A stretch of 64,000 bases of DNA from Dyella amyloliquefaciens (GTDB lineage: Bacteria > Pseudomonadota > Gammaproteobacteria > Xanthomonadales > Rhodanobacteraceae). The position numbers were made by a program, and so were the translations under genes. Location of the stretch: contig NZ_SAYT01000002.1 of assembly GCF_004296575.1 (NCBI RefSeq), positions 186,001 through 250,000 of the forward strand, given 5' to 3'. The notes under the pieces are model-generated. The model worked only from the letters and a program-made list of their open reading frames with translations, did no database searches and had not been told where the DNA came from. How positions within the stretch are numbered: position 1 is the first letter of the stretch; each line of letters begins with the position of its first letter. Shown here piece by piece: positions 44,961-52,250 of the stretch.

Positions 44961-45170
44961 ATGACCCCTCGCGCCCATCTGCAGAAAGCCCTGAACCTCA
45001 TCGAGGGCCACCTCCCGAGGTTGCTCGACGAGTACCCGGACCCGGCGGACTTCTGGCCAGCCTTCGCCGGCGAGGCGGATTCGCTCCTGGAAGAAGCCGG
45101 GCAAGAGCACGAGTGGGTCGCCGATAAGCTCGAGAGTATGCTGACCTTCCATGGGGCGCCTGCCCCATAG
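44961..45170 (+). CDS. Small hypothetical protein preceding an SRAP gene
   Basis: 69 residues from ATG 44961 (MTPRAHLQKALNLIEGHLPR), helical and acidic, with DEYPDPADFWPAFAGEADSLLEEAG. The stop is 10 bp before the SRAP start. I have the impression that it accompanies SRAP proteins of this subtype in related genomes, but this is from memory. Function unknown, perhaps a partner of the SRAP protein. Confidence 0.6.
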   Translation: MTPRAHLQKALNLIEGHLPRLLDEYPDPADFWPAFAGEADSLLEEAGQEHEWVADKLESMLTFHGAPAP

Positions 45171-45180
45171 GGAGCGTGCC

Positions 45181-46173
45181 GTGTGCTACTCCGCCCAGGT
45201 CTACGCCGACTACCGCAAGTACGAACGCTACGGCGGCAAGCTCGACTTCAAGTCGTTCGTGCAGGTCTTCTGGGAGCGCAAGAAGAACGGCGACCTCATG
45301 AAGGTCATGCCGAAGGCCATGGCCGACGCCTTCATGCTCCCTCGCAACGAAGGCGAGCAGGAGGTCAAGAACGCGGTAATCGAGGCATACCGCAGCGTGT
45401 CTCTCGTACTGGAGAAGGAACTGGCCGAACAGACGGAGCGCTTGGTCAAAGCTGAGGCCGTGTTGGCGTCCGCCAAGCCCACGAAAAAAGCGGCCAACGA
45501 CCAGCGCATCGCAAAGACCAAGATTGATGCTGCGCGAGCGAAGCTGGAAGAACTCGCGACGCTTGCCAAGGGCGAAGGCTACGGCCGCATCTGGCCCGGG
45601 CACTACGCGCCTGTCCTGATCCGTGACCCGGCGACCGGAGAACGCCTGATCGTGCCCATGAGATATCGCGCGCGACCGATCGGGTGGACCGAAGCCGATG
45701 AAAAAGCGAAGCCAGGCTGCTACAACGCGCGCAAGGACAGCCTGCGAACCGTCTGGAAGGGATTGTTCGGCTACCAGCACGGCGTCGTGGTCGCGAGCCG
45801 CTTCTACGAAAGCGTCAGCCTCCACAACAACCAGCATCGGCAACTGGCACCGGGAGAGCGCGAGCAGACAGTGGAGATTGCGTTCACGCTGGAACCGCAT
45901 CAGGACATGATCCTGGCGTGCCTGTGGCGGTACGTCGAACCGGAGGGCGACCGACCAGGCTTCCATGGCTTCGCGGCCATCACACGCGACCCGCCGCCCG
46001 AAGTGCAGCAGGCAGGCCACGACCGCTGCATCATTGCCTTGAAGCCCGAAAACATCGACACATGGCTTGAGCCCGACCCGCACAACCTGTCGTCGTCGTA
46101 CGCGATCCTCGATGACCCGCTCGATACGTACTACCAGCATGAGCTGGTGAAGAAGCCGGGCGAAGAGGAATAG
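45181..46173 (+). CDS. SRAP (HMCES/YedK-type) protein with a helical insertion
   Basis: 330 residues from GTG 45181; the start is fixed because the catalytic cysteine must be residue 2 (MCYSAQ), and GGGAG lies 7-8 nt upstream. The active-site set is visible: Cys2, Asn182 in YNARKD, Glu210 in RFYES and His280 in GHDRCIIAL. SRAP proteins crosslink to abasic sites in single-stranded DNA through Cys2 and so protect them. Here about 100 residues (roughly 20-130), including a coiled-coil-like stretch (EQTERLVKAEAVLASAKPTK), are inserted near the N-terminus, making it longer than the usual ~220 residues. Plausible role in replication-linked DNA repair. Confidence 0.85.
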   Translation: MCYSAQVYADYRKYERYGGKLDFKSFVQVFWERKKNGDLMKVMPKAMADAFMLPRNEGEQEVKNAVIEAYRSVSLVLEKELAEQTERLVKAEAVLASAKPTKKAANDQRIAKTKIDAARAKLEELATLAKGEGYGRIWPGHYAPVLIRDPATGERLIVPMRYRARPIGWTEADEKAKPGCYNARKDSLRTVWKGLFGYQHGVVVASRFYESVSLHNNQHRQLAPGEREQTVEIAFTLEPHQDMILACLWRYVEPEGDRPGFHGFAAITRDPPPEVQQAGHDRCIIALKPENIDTWLEPDPHNLSSSYAILDDPLDTYYQHELVKKPGEEE

Positions 46174-46439
46174 CCGCCGTGGACGAGTTGCGGCCTTGCA
46201 GTAGCTGGCTTGGAACCATGCCAATCACTCGCTAAAGCGCGCATTGCGTAGCACCCATTAGCGACAAGGTCCGGCCCACTCACTTGTACCCTATGACGAA
46301 AAAGGGTCGTGATCTTATCCATCAAGGTCAGCAGGCCGCCGCCGTGCAGAAAAAACACTCCTCGCCTATATCTGTTTGAGCAACCAGGCAGCCCTGATCG
46401 CCTCCCTGTCTGCACGCGGCGGTTGCAAGGCGCTGACAC

Positions 46440-46742
46440 CTAACGATCGACTGAGGGCCTTTGAGCTTCGCGGGCCAGGTCGTAACGGGCCTGCAGCACC
46501 AGCCAATAGAGCGCAGATGTGTCCAGCACGAGGGCGAGCCGCATGGCTTGCCGGGGCGTCATGGGGCGGGCGTCGGTGATGAACTCCCTGAGATGTGGTG
46601 CCCGGATACCTGTGCGACGGGCGAGCTGCTGGTGATTCAGCGTTGCCGGAAGCATGTAGTCGAGCAGCAGCACCTCGCCTGGGCTGCGCAAGAGCATGGA
46701 TGGGTCAAAGTCCATCAGCGGATCGATATGAATCAGGCTCAT
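46440..46742 (-). CDS. HigA-like antitoxin (XRE family), apparently without its toxin
   Basis: 100 residues from ATG 46742 with AAGGAAG upstream. MSLIHIDPLMDFDPSMLLRSPGEVLLLDYM, then LNHQQLARRTGIRAPHLREFIT and RPMTPRQAMRLALVLDTSALYWLVLQARYDLA give the HigA (VapI-like) helix-turn-helix pattern. In typical loci the HigB toxin gene lies just upstream; here the sequence upstream (46767-46900) shows no HigB-like frame, so this is an orphan or solitary regulator. Confidence 0.75.
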   Translation of the reverse strand: MSLIHIDPLMDFDPSMLLRSPGEVLLLDYMLPATLNHQQLARRTGIRAPHLREFITDARPMTPRQAMRLALVLDTSALYWLVLQARYDLAREAQRPSVDR

Positions 46743-47733
46743 GAGGCTTCCTTTCTTGTCAGGCACGGCTCAACGACGGATCAAGCCCTACAGGCTTCCG
46801 TGTCGGCGTATGCCGGGGACGATGTAAGTGATCGCTGAGGGGCCGTGCGGCAACTGACAAGCCAAAGAGCCGCGGAAGCGATCAACGGATGCGGGAAATG
46901 CTCACTTAGGACTTCGTATCAAGCGCCGCAGCGCGGGGCGTGGGATATATCCGTAGCCAATGATTGCTGTCGGCGAAAGCTGACACGTGCAGCCGTGAAC
47001 TGCGCTACCCGCCGCATGTGGGGCGACAGAACAGGAAGTGAGGATGCCATCGAGGGGGATGGACGGACGAATGCGTCCCGTATGATCGCGTGCAGCCATG
47101 ATCAACTCCGTTCCAGTTGGTGATGGTCAGCGGGTCGTATGGGTTGCCGCTCATGCGGCCCGCGCTTCACGACATTGGTGTCGAGGCCACCAGCGATGCG
47201 TTTCTATCGACGTCGAAGTGGCTTGTCGAAAGTAGCAAACGACACTGGCATAGCCTGTCGGGGATCACTACGTTACGACCTAGCTTAGTGCCGATACGTA
47301 TGTCGGCACTCAATGACCTATTGAGCCATGAACTCTCGCCAAAGCGTCCGCTTCGGACCGGGCTCGCACATCACTCCACGTTGCCTTTCGCGATGTGTCT
47401 GTAACGACTTCAAGCTTGGATAGTAGTAATCCAGCCAATAAGGTCGATACGCCCTCATATTCTGACACGACCACTCAAAGAAGGATGCCGGCACATCAAG
47501 CTTGGCGATAAAGGCTGGGCCTGTAACCTTCATGTTCACAGTCGAGCCATGCTTGCGTCTACTGTTAGCCCTTCCGCCATAGGCACATAGTCGAACAGCG
47601 CGATTCGAAGCCCGCTAAAGCGATCCAGATGGAAGATGCGTTGAAGGACATCCGGATTTGCAAGGCACCACAATAGGCGAAGACCCGCCAATCCCACAGT
47701 AGAATTCGCGAACATCATTGACAAGTTGAGCTC
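46743..47733. other. Gene-poor, A+T-richer region left of the SIR2 gene
   Basis: No confident gene. It contains two overlapping minus-strand frames at 47318-47745 (listed separately). The composition changes here toward lower GC, which continues through the SIR2 gene. No integrase, transposase or tRNA fragment seen. Confidence 0.45.
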
Positions 47734-47745
47734 ATGAGATTCCAT
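47318..47745 (-). pseudogene. Two coding-like minus-strand frames joined by GTGA, possible remnant
   Basis: Frame 1 (47745-47536; MESHELNLSMMFANSTVGLA, IALFDYVPMAEGLTVDASM) stops at 47536. Frame 2 (47539-47318; VNMKVTGPAFIAKLDVPASF, FEWSCQNMRAYRPYWLDYYY) starts at the overlapping GTG, so the two overlap as GTGA. Codon use is coding-like and low-GC. Frame 1 overlaps the first bases of the SIR2 gene on the other strand. They may be two small genes or one gene split by a frameshift or truncated by the SIR2 gene's arrival. No family recognised. Confidence 0.35.
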
Positions 47746-50700
47746 CCCGACGGCCCCTCTATACCGGATATCCTTCTGGAACGCTGTGATGCTGGACGCG
47801 TCGTGTTTCTGTGCGGCGCTGGGGTTTCATTGCCATCTGGAATGCCGACCTTTGTCGGCCTCACTCAGTACGTCATCAACTCCTTTGACCCACCAGCCGA
47901 TTCGGAAATTATGATCGCTTTTCGGCCATGGCTGGATGGTCAATCTGCAACGAATGTTCCGCTCGACCAGATCTTCAACCTCCTTCACCTTGAATATGGC
48001 AAGGATGAAGTTAACTCCCTTGTCACGGAGCGGCTGAGCTCCTCCCTGAAAATGAGAGATTTTGGACGCGAGCACGAACTAATTAAGCGGATTTCTTCGA
48101 ACCAGAGCGGCGTACCGCAAATCGTCACGACAAACTTCGATCGGTTGTTTGAGGTAGGCCAGAAAGCGGAGCACCTGATTCAGCATGTAGCTCCAGCTCT
48201 TCCCGACCTGAACTTCGGATCAAAGATCGAGGGGATCACGTATCTACATGGGCGACTGGTAGACGCAACCGCCGAAACTCATCCTTACGTACTGAGCAGC
48301 GCAGACTTCGGACGTGCCTACCTGTCAGAAGGATGGGCGACCAACTTCATTCGGCATCTCCTAGAACGATATACCGTCGTTTTAGTCGGCTACCAGGCGG
48401 AAGACCCGCCAGTCAAATATCTTCTTCAAGGCCTCAATCACGATGGCCAGTTTGACCGATCTAGACTTTATGCATTCGATCGTGGACTTCCCGAGGAAAT
48501 CGAAGCCAAGTGGCGTGACCGAGGCGTCACAGCTATAGCCTATTCCGATCATCCAGACCTGTGGAAAACCATGGAAGCGTGGGCAGATCGGGCCGACGAT
48601 CCGCGCAAGTGGCGTGCATCTGTAATCGCCAAAAGCCGGCGAGACCCAAAGGGTCTGACCGCTCACGAACGCGGCCAACTTGCCCATGTTCTGCGCACAG
48701 CACAAGGGGCGAGGTTGTTCTCAGAGGCCGATCCATCACCTCATCCGGAATGGGTATGCGTGATGGATGCGAACGTTCGGTCAGTGAAACAGACTCGAGG
48801 CTACGGCGACAACGCAGAAGCCTTCGACCCTGGAGCCGTCTACGGTTTGGATGACGATCGAGGCGATATCTCCGAGGAAGATCGCAAGCAGGGAGTCACC
48901 AATGACAATCTCTTAGTTTGGCGTGAAGGAGACGACAATCCGCATGAATTTCATCGACTGAGCGGGCGCCAGTCCGAAGGTTTTGAAGCAGTACCGGTTA
49001 GGCTTGGCCACCTCATCAACTGGGTAAGCAAGTCCATTGATAGTCCCGTGCTTGCTTGGTGGGCGGTTCGACAAAATGGGCTTCATCCGCGACTCCTGAA
49101 GCAACTGGAGTGGCAAGTAGCGCAGTCGAAAACGCTCAGTGAGCGTGCTCGTCATATCTGGAATCTCATCCTCGAACACCATCGAGATCCTCGTAATCGT
49201 CAGTGGGATGGCGAGTGGTTCGATTTGAAGACGCGGGTCAATGCGGAAGGTTGGACTTCGAGTGTACTAAGAGCTTTTCAGAGAATCGCGACACCGCGAT
49301 TGGAAATCAAGCCGCCGTCTGGCTTCAAGCAGTCCAGGCCGCCGTTGGCAACATGGGAAGAAACTGATCTCAGCGACCTGGGCCAGTGCGATGTCATCAT
49401 CCTTGAACGGCACAACGAAGAAGTCGACGTTCCTGACAATGTTTTGCCACAGGTATTCGGCATCCTGGAAGAACAGCTAACCGTCGCTTCGGGGCTATTG
49501 CGGGACATCGAGCCCGTCTACTTCCATGCACCAACCTGCTATCCAAACCGTGAGGTTAATGGGAGGGAGCACGTCACCAAAGCCGCGGAGGCGATGGCTT
49601 GGTTCGTCCAACTCATTGACCGAATGGCTGTTACGCGGCCAGAACTGGCAAATGCGCATGCAACGACCTGGCCTGCAACGGACCGGTTCTTCTTCCGAAA
49701 GGCCAAGCTTTATGCGTTCAACAAAGCAGATGCCTTCGAGGCCGACCAAGTTGCCAAGGAAGTCTTGTCCTTAGATCAAGAGGCATTCTGGGACGTCGCC
49801 GTGGGCCGAGAGCTCCTTTTTCTCTTGGTGGATCGATGGAGAGAGTTCTCCGAGGAGAACCGGAATCGGATCGCCGACCGAATCTTGACGGGCCCCGATC
49901 AGCTTTCCCACTGGTCTAGCGAGGAATTCCAAGAATTGCGGGTTTATTTCGCCGCCAAGTACGCTCGATATCTCGAACTACAAGGTTGTGAACTGACGGC
50001 GGGCCACAGTGAGCAACTTGCCGAGTCGATCAGCGGCATTCAGGGATGGAGTGACACTTGGGCGACCTCAACAGTGATCGAAGGAGGCTCCCATACGGGC
50101 TGGGTCGGCACGGACGAAAGACCAGATGCAGTCCTGAACCTTCCTGCAAACGAGATAGTTTCCAGAGCAAAGGAAGATCTGAAGCTTGACGTTGGAACCT
50201 TAACCGAGAAGCGACCGTTCACTGGCCTGGTAAAAGCCAACCCACGAAAGGCGCTGTCTGCGCTAACGATTGCAGGAAAGGCTGGCGACTATCCAGAGGC
50301 ATTCTGGTCGTCCATGATCAACAACCTTCCCGCAGACATCAGTCCTAGGCTGAGGCGAGTATTCCTGAATCGCGTAGCACGCCTTCCATATGCGGCCATT
50401 GTGGAACTACGCCATACGCTGGGCCGATGGCTCCAACAGAATTTAGTCGCTGCCCTCGAGTTTGATGGCGACCTCGGCTGGGCAGTCTACGATCACATCG
50501 TCGATGGCATCCTGAGCGGTGGAGTAGATGCATCAAAGAGCGGCTTGGGCGAAATCCACCAAGGCGGAAAAGTCATTCAACGGTCCCGGCGCACGTTCGA
50601 TCATGCAATCAATGGCCCCATTGGCATGTGTGCTGAAGCCTTATTCCATGCAGTGCCTGGAGAGAAACAAGAGGCGCTCTCACTGATTCCAGATCACATC

Positions 50701-51543
50701 AAGTCTCGCGTCGAGCGCCTCTTCTCCGCATCGGGTGAGAGCTCAGATCATGCTGTGTCGATAGCGTGCGCAAAGCTGAACTGGCTTATGTTTGTTGATC
50801 CCGCCTGGACAAAAGAGCGTCTTATTCCGATGTTAGCGTTCGAGCATTCGGCTTCGGAGCCCGCGTGGAACGGGTTTCTTCATAGCGGGCGAATACCTTG
50901 GTCGCCGTTGGCAGAGATAATAAAACCGCTGCTGATCGACCTCTTTCCTTGGGTCGAAGAATTCTCCTGGAATCGCGACCTCTCAACGGTAGCCGCCCAA
51001 TGGCTAGGCCTCATGCGGATGTCTCACCCGGATGAGCCGACTGGTCTTTCACGAAGCGAAATGCGCTCAGTCTTCCGCGCCATGTCCGATGATACTCGGA
51101 ACCGATTCATTTCCTGGTTGAGCCAAGTTGGACAGAAAAACGAGAGCGGCTGGGCCAAACACGTCGCCCCCTTAATCAACAAAGACTGGCCGAGAGAGCG
51201 CCGATACCGAACCTCAGCATCGGTGCGGGCGTGGATCGGTCTACTTGGTGACACCGGAGATCGGTTCCCAATTGTGTATGAAGCAGTGAAGAAGTTCTTG
51301 GTGCCCGTGGAGGCAAATGACCATCCGTTCTACCGGTTCACCAAAGAATTCAGCGGAGAAGGGCCGATTACCACCCGGTTCCCTGAAGCAACGCTAGACT
51401 TGATGAACAGAGCCACCCCTCGAGCCCTCACCCATTCGCCGTATGAGTTACCCAAGGTGCTAGCACTGATTGCGGAAGCCGAACCTGATCTGATATCAGA
51501 TCCACGCTATTTGCGTCTTATCGATCTTGTTGAACGAAGCTAG
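47734..51543 (+). CDS. SIR2-domain anti-phage defence protein, defence-associated sirtuin (DSR)-like
   Basis: 1269 residues. The SIR2 NADase domain covers about 1-275: FLCGAGVSLPSGMPTF (26-41, NAD-binding GAGxS), QIVTTNFDRLFE (TNFD 133-136), ITYLHGRLVD (LHG 171-173, His catalytic), VVLVGYQAEDPPVKYLL (215-231). The remaining about 990 residues are helical, with no P-loop NTPase motif, so STAND-type ATPase is not supported; they probably form the sensor. Single long SIR2 genes of this kind (DSR1/DSR2) deplete NAD+ on recognising a phage protein and abort infection. The gene is richer in A+T and has different codon use from its neighbours. It sits alone between gene-poor sequence and the tRNA-Ser locus, consistent with horizontal acquisition. 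The ribosome-binding site is weak. Confidence 0.8.
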   Translation: MRFHPDGPSIPDILLERCDAGRVVFLCGAGVSLPSGMPTFVGLTQYVINSFDPPADSEIMIAFRPWLDGQSATNVPLDQIFNLLHLEYGKDEVNSLVTERLSSSLKMRDFGREHELIKRISSNQSGVPQIVTTNFDRLFEVGQKAEHLIQHVAPALPDLNFGSKIEGITYLHGRLVDATAETHPYVLSSADFGRAYLSEGWATNFIRHLLERYTVVLVGYQAEDPPVKYLLQGLNHDGQFDRSRLYAFDRGLPEEIEAKWRDRGVTAIAYSDHPDLWKTMEAWADRADDPRKWRASVIAKSRRDPKGLTAHERGQLAHVLRTAQGARLFSEADPSPHPEWVCVMDANVRSVKQTRGYGDNAEAFDPGAVYGLDDDRGDISEEDRKQGVTNDNLLVWREGDDNPHEFHRLSGRQSEGFEAVPVRLGHLINWVSKSIDSPVLAWWAVRQNGLHPRLLKQLEWQVAQSKTLSERARHIWNLILEHHRDPRNRQWDGEWFDLKTRVNAEGWTSSVLRAFQRIATPRLEIKPPSGFKQSRPPLATWEETDLSDLGQCDVIILERHNEEVDVPDNVLPQVFGILEEQLTVASGLLRDIEPVYFHAPTCYPNREVNGREHVTKAAEAMAWFVQLIDRMAVTRPELANAHATTWPATDRFFFRKAKLYAFNKADAFEADQVAKEVLSLDQEAFWDVAVGRELLFLLVDRWREFSEENRNRIADRILTGPDQLSHWSSEEFQELRVYFAAKYARYLELQGCELTAGHSEQLAESISGIQGWSDTWATSTVIEGGSHTGWVGTDERPDAVLNLPANEIVSRAKEDLKLDVGTLTEKRPFTGLVKANPRKALSALTIAGKAGDYPEAFWSSMINNLPADISPRLRRVFLNRVARLPYAAIVELRHTLGRWLQQNLVAALEFDGDLGWAVYDHIVDGILSGGVDASKSGLGEIHQGGKVIQRSRRTFDHAINGPIGMCAEALFHAVPGEKQEALSLIPDHIKSRVERLFSASGESSDHAVSIACAKLNWLMFVDPAWTKERLIPMLAFEHSASEPAWNGFLHSGRIPWSPLAEIIKPLLIDLFPWVEEFSWNRDLSTVAAQWLGLMRMSHPDEPTGLSRSEMRSVFRAMSDDTRNRFISWLSQVGQKNESGWAKHVAPLINKDWPRERRYRTSASVRAWIGLLGDTGDRFPIVYEAVKKFLVPVEANDHPFYRFTKEFSGEGPITTRFPEATLDLMNRATPRALTHSPYELPKVLALIAEAEPDLISDPRYLRLIDLVERS

Positions 51544-51710
51544 ATTTCTGTTCTCATAACTGACTACCCAGTAATTTGCTCTCGGATTCTCGGACACTCA
51601 ACGACTGCCTCTGACCGTTCTCCGAACAAGAGAAGCAGAGTCCTTTTGAGAATGTTCGGTAGCCAGTGCCGGCTGCCTCAGCGGGGACGCACGTCACGGC
51701 CGTGGGATTG

Positions 51711-51732
51711 TTGGGTGCATCCATGCACCCAA
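51711..51732. repeat. Perfect inverted repeat, copy A
   Basis: 10-bp arms TTGGGTGCAT/ATGCACCCAA around CC; an identical 22-nt element is at 51889-51910. Confidence 0.9.
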
Positions 51733-51829
51733 CCCCTCCGCGCTTTGCGCTGCGGGGCCGGCCTTCGGCCGTCCAACAAGTTCCAGACAAATTTGTCGAA
51801 CCGGTGGGTTCTCACCCAGTCGCTCAGTC

Positions 51830-51869
51830 AGAAACGAAAACGCCCCCAAGCGGGGGCGATTTCGTTTCT
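51830..51869 (-). terminator. GC-rich hairpin, repeat copy A
   Basis: Imperfect long stem between AGAAACGAAA-type and TTTCGTTTCT-type arms with CGCCCCC/GGGGGCG at the core; counterpart of the perfect hairpin at 52012-52047. Confidence 0.55.
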
Positions 51870-51887
51870 GGCGGAGAGAGCGGGATT
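51869..51887 (-). repeat. Duplicated 3' end of tRNA-Ser (relic)
   Basis: 19 nt matching the 3' terminal part of the tRNA-Ser gene, including the CCA end, with one mismatch (compare 52050-52068). Tail-only copy; no other tRNA parts remain. Confidence 0.85.
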
Positions 51888-51888
51888 G

Positions 51889-51910
51889 TTGGGTGCATCC
51901 ATGCACCCAA
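51889..51910. repeat. Perfect inverted repeat, copy B
   Basis: Same 22-nt element as 51711-51732, 178 bp further right. Confidence 0.9.
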
Positions 51911-52011
51911 CCCTTCCGCGCTGCGCACTCCAGGGCCAGCCTGCGGCTGTCCAAATTTGTTCCAGACAAATTTGTCGAACCAATGGGTTCTCATCCCCGT
52001 CTGTCCATCAG

Positions 52012-52047
52012 ATACGCAAACGCCCCCAGTTGGGGGCGTTTGCGTAT
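52012..52047 (-). terminator. Very strong perfect hairpin downstream of tRNA-Ser
   Basis: 17-bp perfect stem with a 2-nt loop (52012-52028 with 52031-52047), three bases past the tRNA 3' end on the minus strand. Likely processing or termination signal for the tRNA transcript. Confidence 0.75.
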
Positions 52048-52049
52048 CT

Positions 52050-52138
52050 GGCGGAGAGAGTGGGATTCGAACCCACGGTAGGCTTACACCTACGGCAGTT
52101 TTCAAGACTGCTGCCTTAAACCGCTCGGCCATCTCTCC
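52050..52138 (-). tRNA. tRNA-Ser, anticodon UGA
   Basis: 89 nt including an encoded CCA. The acceptor stem GGAGAGA pairs with TCTCTCC; the anticodon loop CTTGAAA gives anticodon TGA (reads UCA and wobble partners). The long variable arm (CCGTAGGTGTAAGCCTACC) is typical of class II tRNA-Ser, and the T-arm GGGTTCGAATCCC is intact. serS lies a short distance upstream on the same strand. The 3' end is the junction of the 178-bp repeats. Confidence 0.97.
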
Positions 52139-52165
52139 GGGCTTGGTTGTGTCCAGTGCAAGGCA

Positions 52166-52250
52166 CTGGATGACTCGCTGCGCTCGCCCCTACGGGGCCG
52201 CCCTCCGGGCGTTCTGCTCTTCGCTTGTCCCGCTTTCGCGGGAATGACGA
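52166..52250. repeat. Dispersed repeat of rRNA-free type, copy 1
   Basis: Shares a long, nearly identical stretch with 55408-55495: CTGGATGACTCGCTGCGCTC and CGGGCGTTCTGC, ending GGAATGACG. Contains small inverted repeats (GCCCCTACGGGGC). Intergenic REP-like element. Confidence 0.7.

Follow-up and report, generated by a model that had tools for sequence, protein, structure and literature searches.

The stretch of DNA analysed here (hereafter the window) comprises 64,000 nucleotides of Dyella amyloliquefaciens contig NZ_SAYT01000002.1, positions 186,001 to 250,000, and carries at positions 47734–51543 of its forward strand a gene for a Dsr1-like defence sirtuin. The gene encodes 1269 amino acids (aa) from an ATG start without an internal stop, and the choice of start codon is backed by relatives whose alignment begins at residue 1. 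An open reading frame (ORF) of such length, bearing the motifs given below and conserved in relatives, is not a chance occurrence; within its own genome, it is the only match to its protein. Its guanine-plus-cytosine (GC) content is 54.5% vs. 62.6% for the window, and its third-position GC (0.573) is the lowest among 33 script-picked window ORFs of at least 200 aa, in line with a preliminary description of the locus, made by eye, that had called the gene visibly lower in GC.

Residues 1–285 (47734–48588, forward strand) make up the SIR2 domain, with a boundary that we chose from conservation; Pfam SIR2_2 matches residues 129–268. The SIR2 signatures already placed in the N-terminal part by the preliminary description were found as GAGVS (residues 28–32), TTNFD (132–136), and LHG (171–173). 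By motif and in the alignment, N134 (codon 48133–48135, forward strand) corresponds to DSR2 N133, and H172 (codon 48247–48249, forward strand) to DSR2 H171. Mutation of these DSR2 residues lowers its nicotinamide adenine dinucleotide (NAD+) hydrolase, or NADase, activity, according to PMC10981675 and PMC10973363. Six residues (G28, A29, G30, S32, N134, and H172) are invariant across all 110 aligned proteins that reach 1150 aa or more; part of this set was recruited with a TTNFD or a GxVVFxCGA-stretch pattern, which biases those columns, and H172 lies in no pattern. Only two cysteines occur in residues 1–300, with no CxxC pairs of the zinc type; PMC10981675 describes the zinc insertion as absent from DSR2. 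The remainder of the protein (residues 286–1269; 48589–51543, forward strand) is a predicted alpha-solenoid and the presumed sensor.

Homology to Dsr1 and predicted fold

A search with hidden Markov models (HMMs) from PADLOC, which the preliminary description had proposed as a check, returned Dsr1: model PDLC04167 matches the window protein with an expectation value (E) of 2e-88 and PDLC02183 with 4.4e-80. The NCBIfam Dsr1 model (NF041818) matches in two stretches at E 3.9e-113; across 398 genomes of the phylum, it matches 25 at E ≤1e-30, nine of them above its cut-off, and it has no match in 14 control genomes. When a profile of 67 C-terminal parts from the window lineage was compared with one of 10 canonical Dsr1 C-terminal parts, the two aligned over 930 columns at 20% identity, with a probability of 100 and E 5.8e-68. 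Judged from these sequence comparisons, the long stretch after the SIR2 domain is no unknown domain: it is homologous throughout to the C-terminal part of Dsr1 and represents a diverged version of it. The initial view that this region is unlike a known DSR is not supported, given the 930-column match and the PADLOC models. The related statement that neither a P-loop nor any other recognised domain is present is correct for Pfam, where SIR2_2 stands alone, but not beyond it, since Dsr1 models cover the remainder. What the same description called a single-gene, SIR2-effector protein of the DSR type is backed by the PADLOC and NCBIfam matches and by the structural match to DSR2 given below. No conserved partner gene was found, as the commonest non-integrase neighbour family occurs at just seven genome loci (script-picked ORFs); likewise, no HerA-like ORF was recognised by eye among the window gene’s neighbours, not all of which were scanned for families.

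The AlphaFold prediction (67 sequences) is mostly helical over residues 271–1269, with a mean predicted local distance difference test score (pLDDT) of 87.7, and a model of residues 1–1200 has a mean pLDDT of 86.9. In Foldseek searches with the latter, DSR2 chains hold ranks 1–34, with E from 1e-9 and an alignment that runs along the chain, and the SIR2 part alone reaches target template modelling (TM) scores of 0.67–0.74 against DSR2 and KomC. The structural comparison with DSR proteins suggested at the outset thus yielded DSR2 for the 1–1200 model but not for the C-terminal model alone, which has no DSR2 among the 50 matches listed; HEAT-type solenoids (such as importins, CAND1, and SF3b; query TM 0.07–0.26) are among those matches. 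The viral structure library gave no match at E ≤0.001. By sequence, the best match in the PDB is again DSR2 (E 2.3e-4), over the SIR2 part only.

The two parts of the protein differ in conservation. Mean pairwise identity among 28 close relatives is 0.775 for residues 1–285, 0.620 for the remainder, and 0.567 for residues 451–700. For five close relatives, nonsynonymous divergence (dN) of the C-terminal part is 1.4–2.2 times that of the SIR2 domain, and the whole-gene ratio of nonsynonymous to synonymous divergence (dN/dS) is 0.13–0.16. A conserved SIR2 domain joined to a varying C-terminal part would fit an effector with a diverging sensor, which is not in itself proof of sensing.

Lineage, distribution and mobility

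The window protein is 72–78% identical to proteins from Pseudomonas, Alcanivorax, Halothiobacillus, Gemmobacter, and three viral contigs, and 60–69% identical to many alpha-, beta-, and gammaproteobacterial proteins, after which identity declines continuously to 27%. Canonical Dsr1 is set apart at 22–33%, the upper values coming from the SIR2 part alone. The genome loci considered were the best 80 of 517 relatives; 67 of them yielded proteins of at least 1150 aa, and the 13 shorter ones (contig ends, interruptions, and stops) were left out, as were L014, L206, L211, L215, and six loci with a truncated stretch. Before the tree was built, 15 of the 110 proteins were dropped, mostly as near-copies and one (L214) by choice. 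Rows qualified as canonical through their NF041818 score or through an identity of 45% or more to L011, and rows neither canonical nor among six outliers were taken as the window lineage. In the resulting tree of 95 rows, made by a quick method (LG+G4, with branch support from the Shimodaira–Hasegawa-like approximate likelihood ratio test, SH-aLRT, only and without bootstrap), the 76 window-lineage rows are set apart from all others by a branch of SH-aLRT 100, as are the 13 canonical rows. The rows nearest to the window protein are from Alcanivorax, the viral contigs, Halothiobacillus, and Pseudomonas. On this phylogeny, the window protein is a member of a deep sister lineage of Dsr1 that is widespread and mobile in many proteobacteria, and since identity to Dsr1 is about 23%, a different specificity is possible.

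Distribution near the window genome is patchy. In the window’s own family, 10 of 233 genomes, its own included, have a match at E ≤1e-20, and three of these matches cover most of the length. Among 20 genomes of the genus, matches at E 1e-20 were found only in the window genome and in one other (G059), where the match is partial and on a different contig from that genome’s tRNA-Ser locus. The Dyella lutea copy (G064), a 68% relative from the window’s own family, groups with a Rhodobacteraceae copy in the tree, and transfer between distant bacteria is therefore indicated.

Full-length relatives at 75–78% identity are encoded on three viral contigs, for which phage neighbours are to be expected given their origin in a viral collection. 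One of these contigs (L192, which carries L043) is a P2-like prophage containing genes for a terminase, capsid, tail sheath, and FII tail tube; its FII gene is labelled head closure by PHROGs and tail tube FII by Pfam. There, the 75% relative is encoded on the opposite strand and flanked by V (Phage_base_V) and S (Phage_tail_S); R is the next gene. In P2, the fun locus lies elsewhere than between V and S. The V–S slot differs from the gpA–gpQ hot spot described in PMC9122126, and the further locus named in PMC9519451 is that of fun. On the second contig (L191), an integrase gene adjoins the relative, with Gam-like and exonuclease genes also present, and the third (L190) has genes for a DNA methyltransferase, a spanin, and an endolysin.

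In the genome collection, a tyrosine integrase was found near the relative at 14 of the 80 loci (flanks of up to 8 kb, with less than 8 kb on one side at many loci). The integrase HMMs were built by script from proteins recognised by eye, four of which were checked or partly checked in family libraries or are close to checked ones. P2-like tail genes, for the probes tried, occur at one genome-collection locus (L184), and 59 of 72,556 plasmid records carry a relative. Some copies are interrupted: on an Enterobacter plasmid (L106), an IS3-family transposase gene lies inside the relative’s gene, and at L139 the relative extends across about 5 kb that also contain a transposase-like ORF. Separately, a family of prophages or islands that resemble one another (L197–L205, L215, and L216) carries canonical-type Dsr1 immediately downstream of an integrase; these proteins are about 68% identical to L011, except that L215 is a short piece only.

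What close relatives share at the nucleotide level is compact. A leader of about 50 nt precedes the window gene (47684–47733, forward strand): similarity at z ≥3 is seen in 7 of 12 close relatives for the 50 nt ahead of the start codon and in none of the 12 for the 50 nt preceding those. Past the stop codon, similarity is seen in five of the 12 over the first 50 nt and in four over the next 50 nt. The shared unit thus extends little past the ORF, with a short leader and a short trailer. The gene was probably brought in by mobile DNA.

The tRNA-Ser slot

The window gene is the sole occupant of a variable slot (47340–51700, with a presumed left border), delimited by comparison with 19 congeners at the tRNA-Ser gene and the serine tRNA ligase gene, the latter named by eye. 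A tRNA-Ser(TGA) gene (52049–52138, reverse strand) is the right border. Two congener loci (L085 and L086) share the left flank (window 46656–47339, 80%), and the distance from there to the tRNA is about 5.5 kb in these loci vs. 4.7 kb in the window. Since the flank itself belongs to a dispersed repeat, we only infer left-flank synteny. The placement between gene-poor sequence and tRNA-Ser given in the preliminary description was right about the tRNA, and the left side proved to be mostly repeat plus a small gene. The repeat (46389–47337) is dispersed in the genus, with many copies at 70–82% identity in the window’s own genome and in congeners, and the small gene within it (46440–46766, reverse strand) matches a PHROG of plasmid antitoxins with a helix-turn-helix domain. 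Still further left, the product of 45151–46173 (340 aa) matches the Pfam domain SRAP (SOS response associated peptidase).

On the right, 51702–52067 is taken up by a hairpin-containing repeat of about 180 bp in two copies, the second overlapping the 3′ end of the tRNA. The same repeat forms a tandem array beside this tRNA in L101 and is dispersed in L084 and L086. A 19-nt copy of the tRNA 3′ end (51869–51887) was considered as an attachment site for an element bringing in the gene and rejected, as it belongs to this repeat, which several congeners have as well. Just outside the tRNA, at about 52160–52250, lies a short element with many copies in congeners and in the window’s own genome. No integrase remnant was found in the window with two congener protein probes (best E 0.55).

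Ten proteins picked by eye from the congener slots were compared with PADLOC models. Matches include SIR2 + HerA (L100), Old (L098), Old/GajA (L086), and HEC-07 (L095), with weak ones to a caspase (L091) and PDC-M28B (L085); three of the ten (L084, L089, and L096) had no PADLOC match. Pfam assigned an integrase domain to L084 and an N-terminal DUF6538 to both L084 and L096. The SIR2 + HerA gene pair of L100 (7539–10630) sits in the same tRNA-Ser slot. The slot thus resembles an integration site where defence genes accumulate, and the placement at tRNA-Ser in the preliminary description is supported by the integrases and defence genes that congeners carry there. For the lineage as a whole, a tRNA neighbour is no rule, because a tRNA was found in the flank at only 6 of the 36 scanned loci of relatives.

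Proposed function and relation to known systems

We consider it likely that the gene encodes a mobile, single-gene anti-phage protein of the Dsr1 superfamily, a SIR2 NADase switched on by a phage component. In favour of this are the PADLOC, NCBIfam, and C-terminal profile matches to Dsr1, the place of DSR2 as best match of the 1–1200 model and in the PDB, the retained catalytic residues, the low dN/dS, the occurrence of relatives in prophages, on plasmids, and near integrases, and the other defence genes in the slot of congeners. By analogy with DSR2, recognition of a phage protein followed by NAD+ hydrolysis is the most likely mechanism: the tail tube protein binds the C-terminal part of DSR2 and activates its NADase, as described in PMC10981675 and PMC10973363. 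We infer NADase activity, an oligomer, and a phage trigger for the window protein from DSR1 and DSR2. The N-terminal SIR2 domain would be an NAD+ hydrolase held off in healthy cells, and the C-terminal alpha-solenoid would bind a protein made in phage infection; as with DSR2, this might be a structural (tail) protein. Its binding would free the SIR2 domain, probably inside the oligomer, and the resulting fall in NAD+ would stop phage multiplication. For DSR1, PMC10952713 describes inhibition of phage replication without cell death. The lineage is not described, and no Dsr1 trigger is named, in the available parts of PMC10973363, PMC10952713, PMC9122126, PMC9519451, PMC12700824, PMC10981675, and PMC12931631; in the literature that our searches brought up, as far as its text was available, no functional test of the window lineage surfaced.

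Several results weigh against this interpretation. No relatives were found in 50,697 phage records. The NF041818 score of the window protein is 379 bits, short of the equivalog cut-off of 1400, and we therefore file it as Dsr1-like rather than as a Dsr1 equivalog; four other window-lineage members score 336–360 bits, and two canonical proteins 2016 and 2061. The whole-chain TM score of the 1–1200 model to DSR2 (Foldseek) is low, at about 0.2, and a profile of the 67 C-terminal parts finds no DSR2 chain at E ≤10. Finally, a consensus scan for sigma-70 sites revealed no sigma-70-like promoter upstream of the gene, and a promoter and terminator scan of the upstream region found nothing.

It is possible, if doubtful, that the same NADase chemistry serves mainly as a weapon between elements, in superinfection exclusion or competition of prophages, islands, and plasmids. 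The chromosomal copy would then be a leftover, and the trigger might be a component of a rival prophage or plasmid instead of a lytic phage. This account overlaps with the one we favour, and the relatives in the P2-like prophage and the two other viral contigs, on the 59 plasmid records, and near integrases at 14 genome loci would suit it. The viral contigs, however, had phage neighbours by the nature of their collection, the window copy has no element genes around it, and the congener slots carry general defence genes.

Decay of the window copy into a silent or inactive remnant of a former island seems unlikely. Such a remnant might well show the lack of a promoter-like site in the sigma-70 scan and of an integrase remnant with the two congener probes, and some relatives are indeed broken by insertion sequences, but the 1269 codons are intact and the catalytic residues kept; dN/dS against relatives is also low, although it measures the lineage and not the window genome alone. 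Least probable is a protein deacylase or metabolic SIR2 enzyme with no defence role. The first 53 residues have weak matches to NCBIfam models of NAD-dependent deacylases (E 0.038 and 0.083), which are set against the strong full-length Dsr1 match, the absence of CxxC zinc motifs, and a patchy, mobile distribution.

More tentatively, and we think rather improbably in its entirety, the lineage would be a second major one of the Dsr1 type that has its own phage trigger and is disseminated by mobile elements, and the V–S position of a P2-like prophage would be a cargo slot in which a sirtuin of the window type spares the carrier’s tail proteins and reacts to those of rivals. If this were true, self/non-self discrimination by a defence sirtuin would become directly testable, the copy in the P2-like prophage offering a test of how a prophage avoids triggering its own sirtuin. 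Dsr1 appears less studied than DSR2, as DSR2 structures have been solved, no Dsr1 chain turned up, and no Dsr1 trigger is named in the parts of the literature available. The lineage is a deep set of natural variants in which the NADase residues are retained and the solenoid is more variable, so that they could serve to map a recognition surface. In one genus, the tRNA-Ser slot is an additional integration site rich in defence genes; interest rests on the lineage and the P2-like prophage slot more than on the window copy.

Among known systems, Dsr1 (NF041818; PDLC02183 and PDLC04167) resembles the window protein in length, N-terminal SIR2 domain, single-gene organisation, and C-terminal part, but the two are about 23% identical over their length and belong to lineages separated with SH-aLRT 100. 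DSR2 (solved structures include 8w56 and 8wkx) has a SIR2 domain with the same catalytic residues by motif and a long helical C-terminal part; it differs in having 1005 residues rather than 1269, and in its sequence match to the window protein being confined to the SIR2 part. PHROG 15208, whose profile is 1275 long, matches the window protein at 2.6e-54, but PHROGs gives no function for it. SIR2-HerA shares the SIR2 effector and has a matching pair in the same slot of a congener, but consists of two genes, and by eye no HerA-like ORF was recognised next to the window gene.

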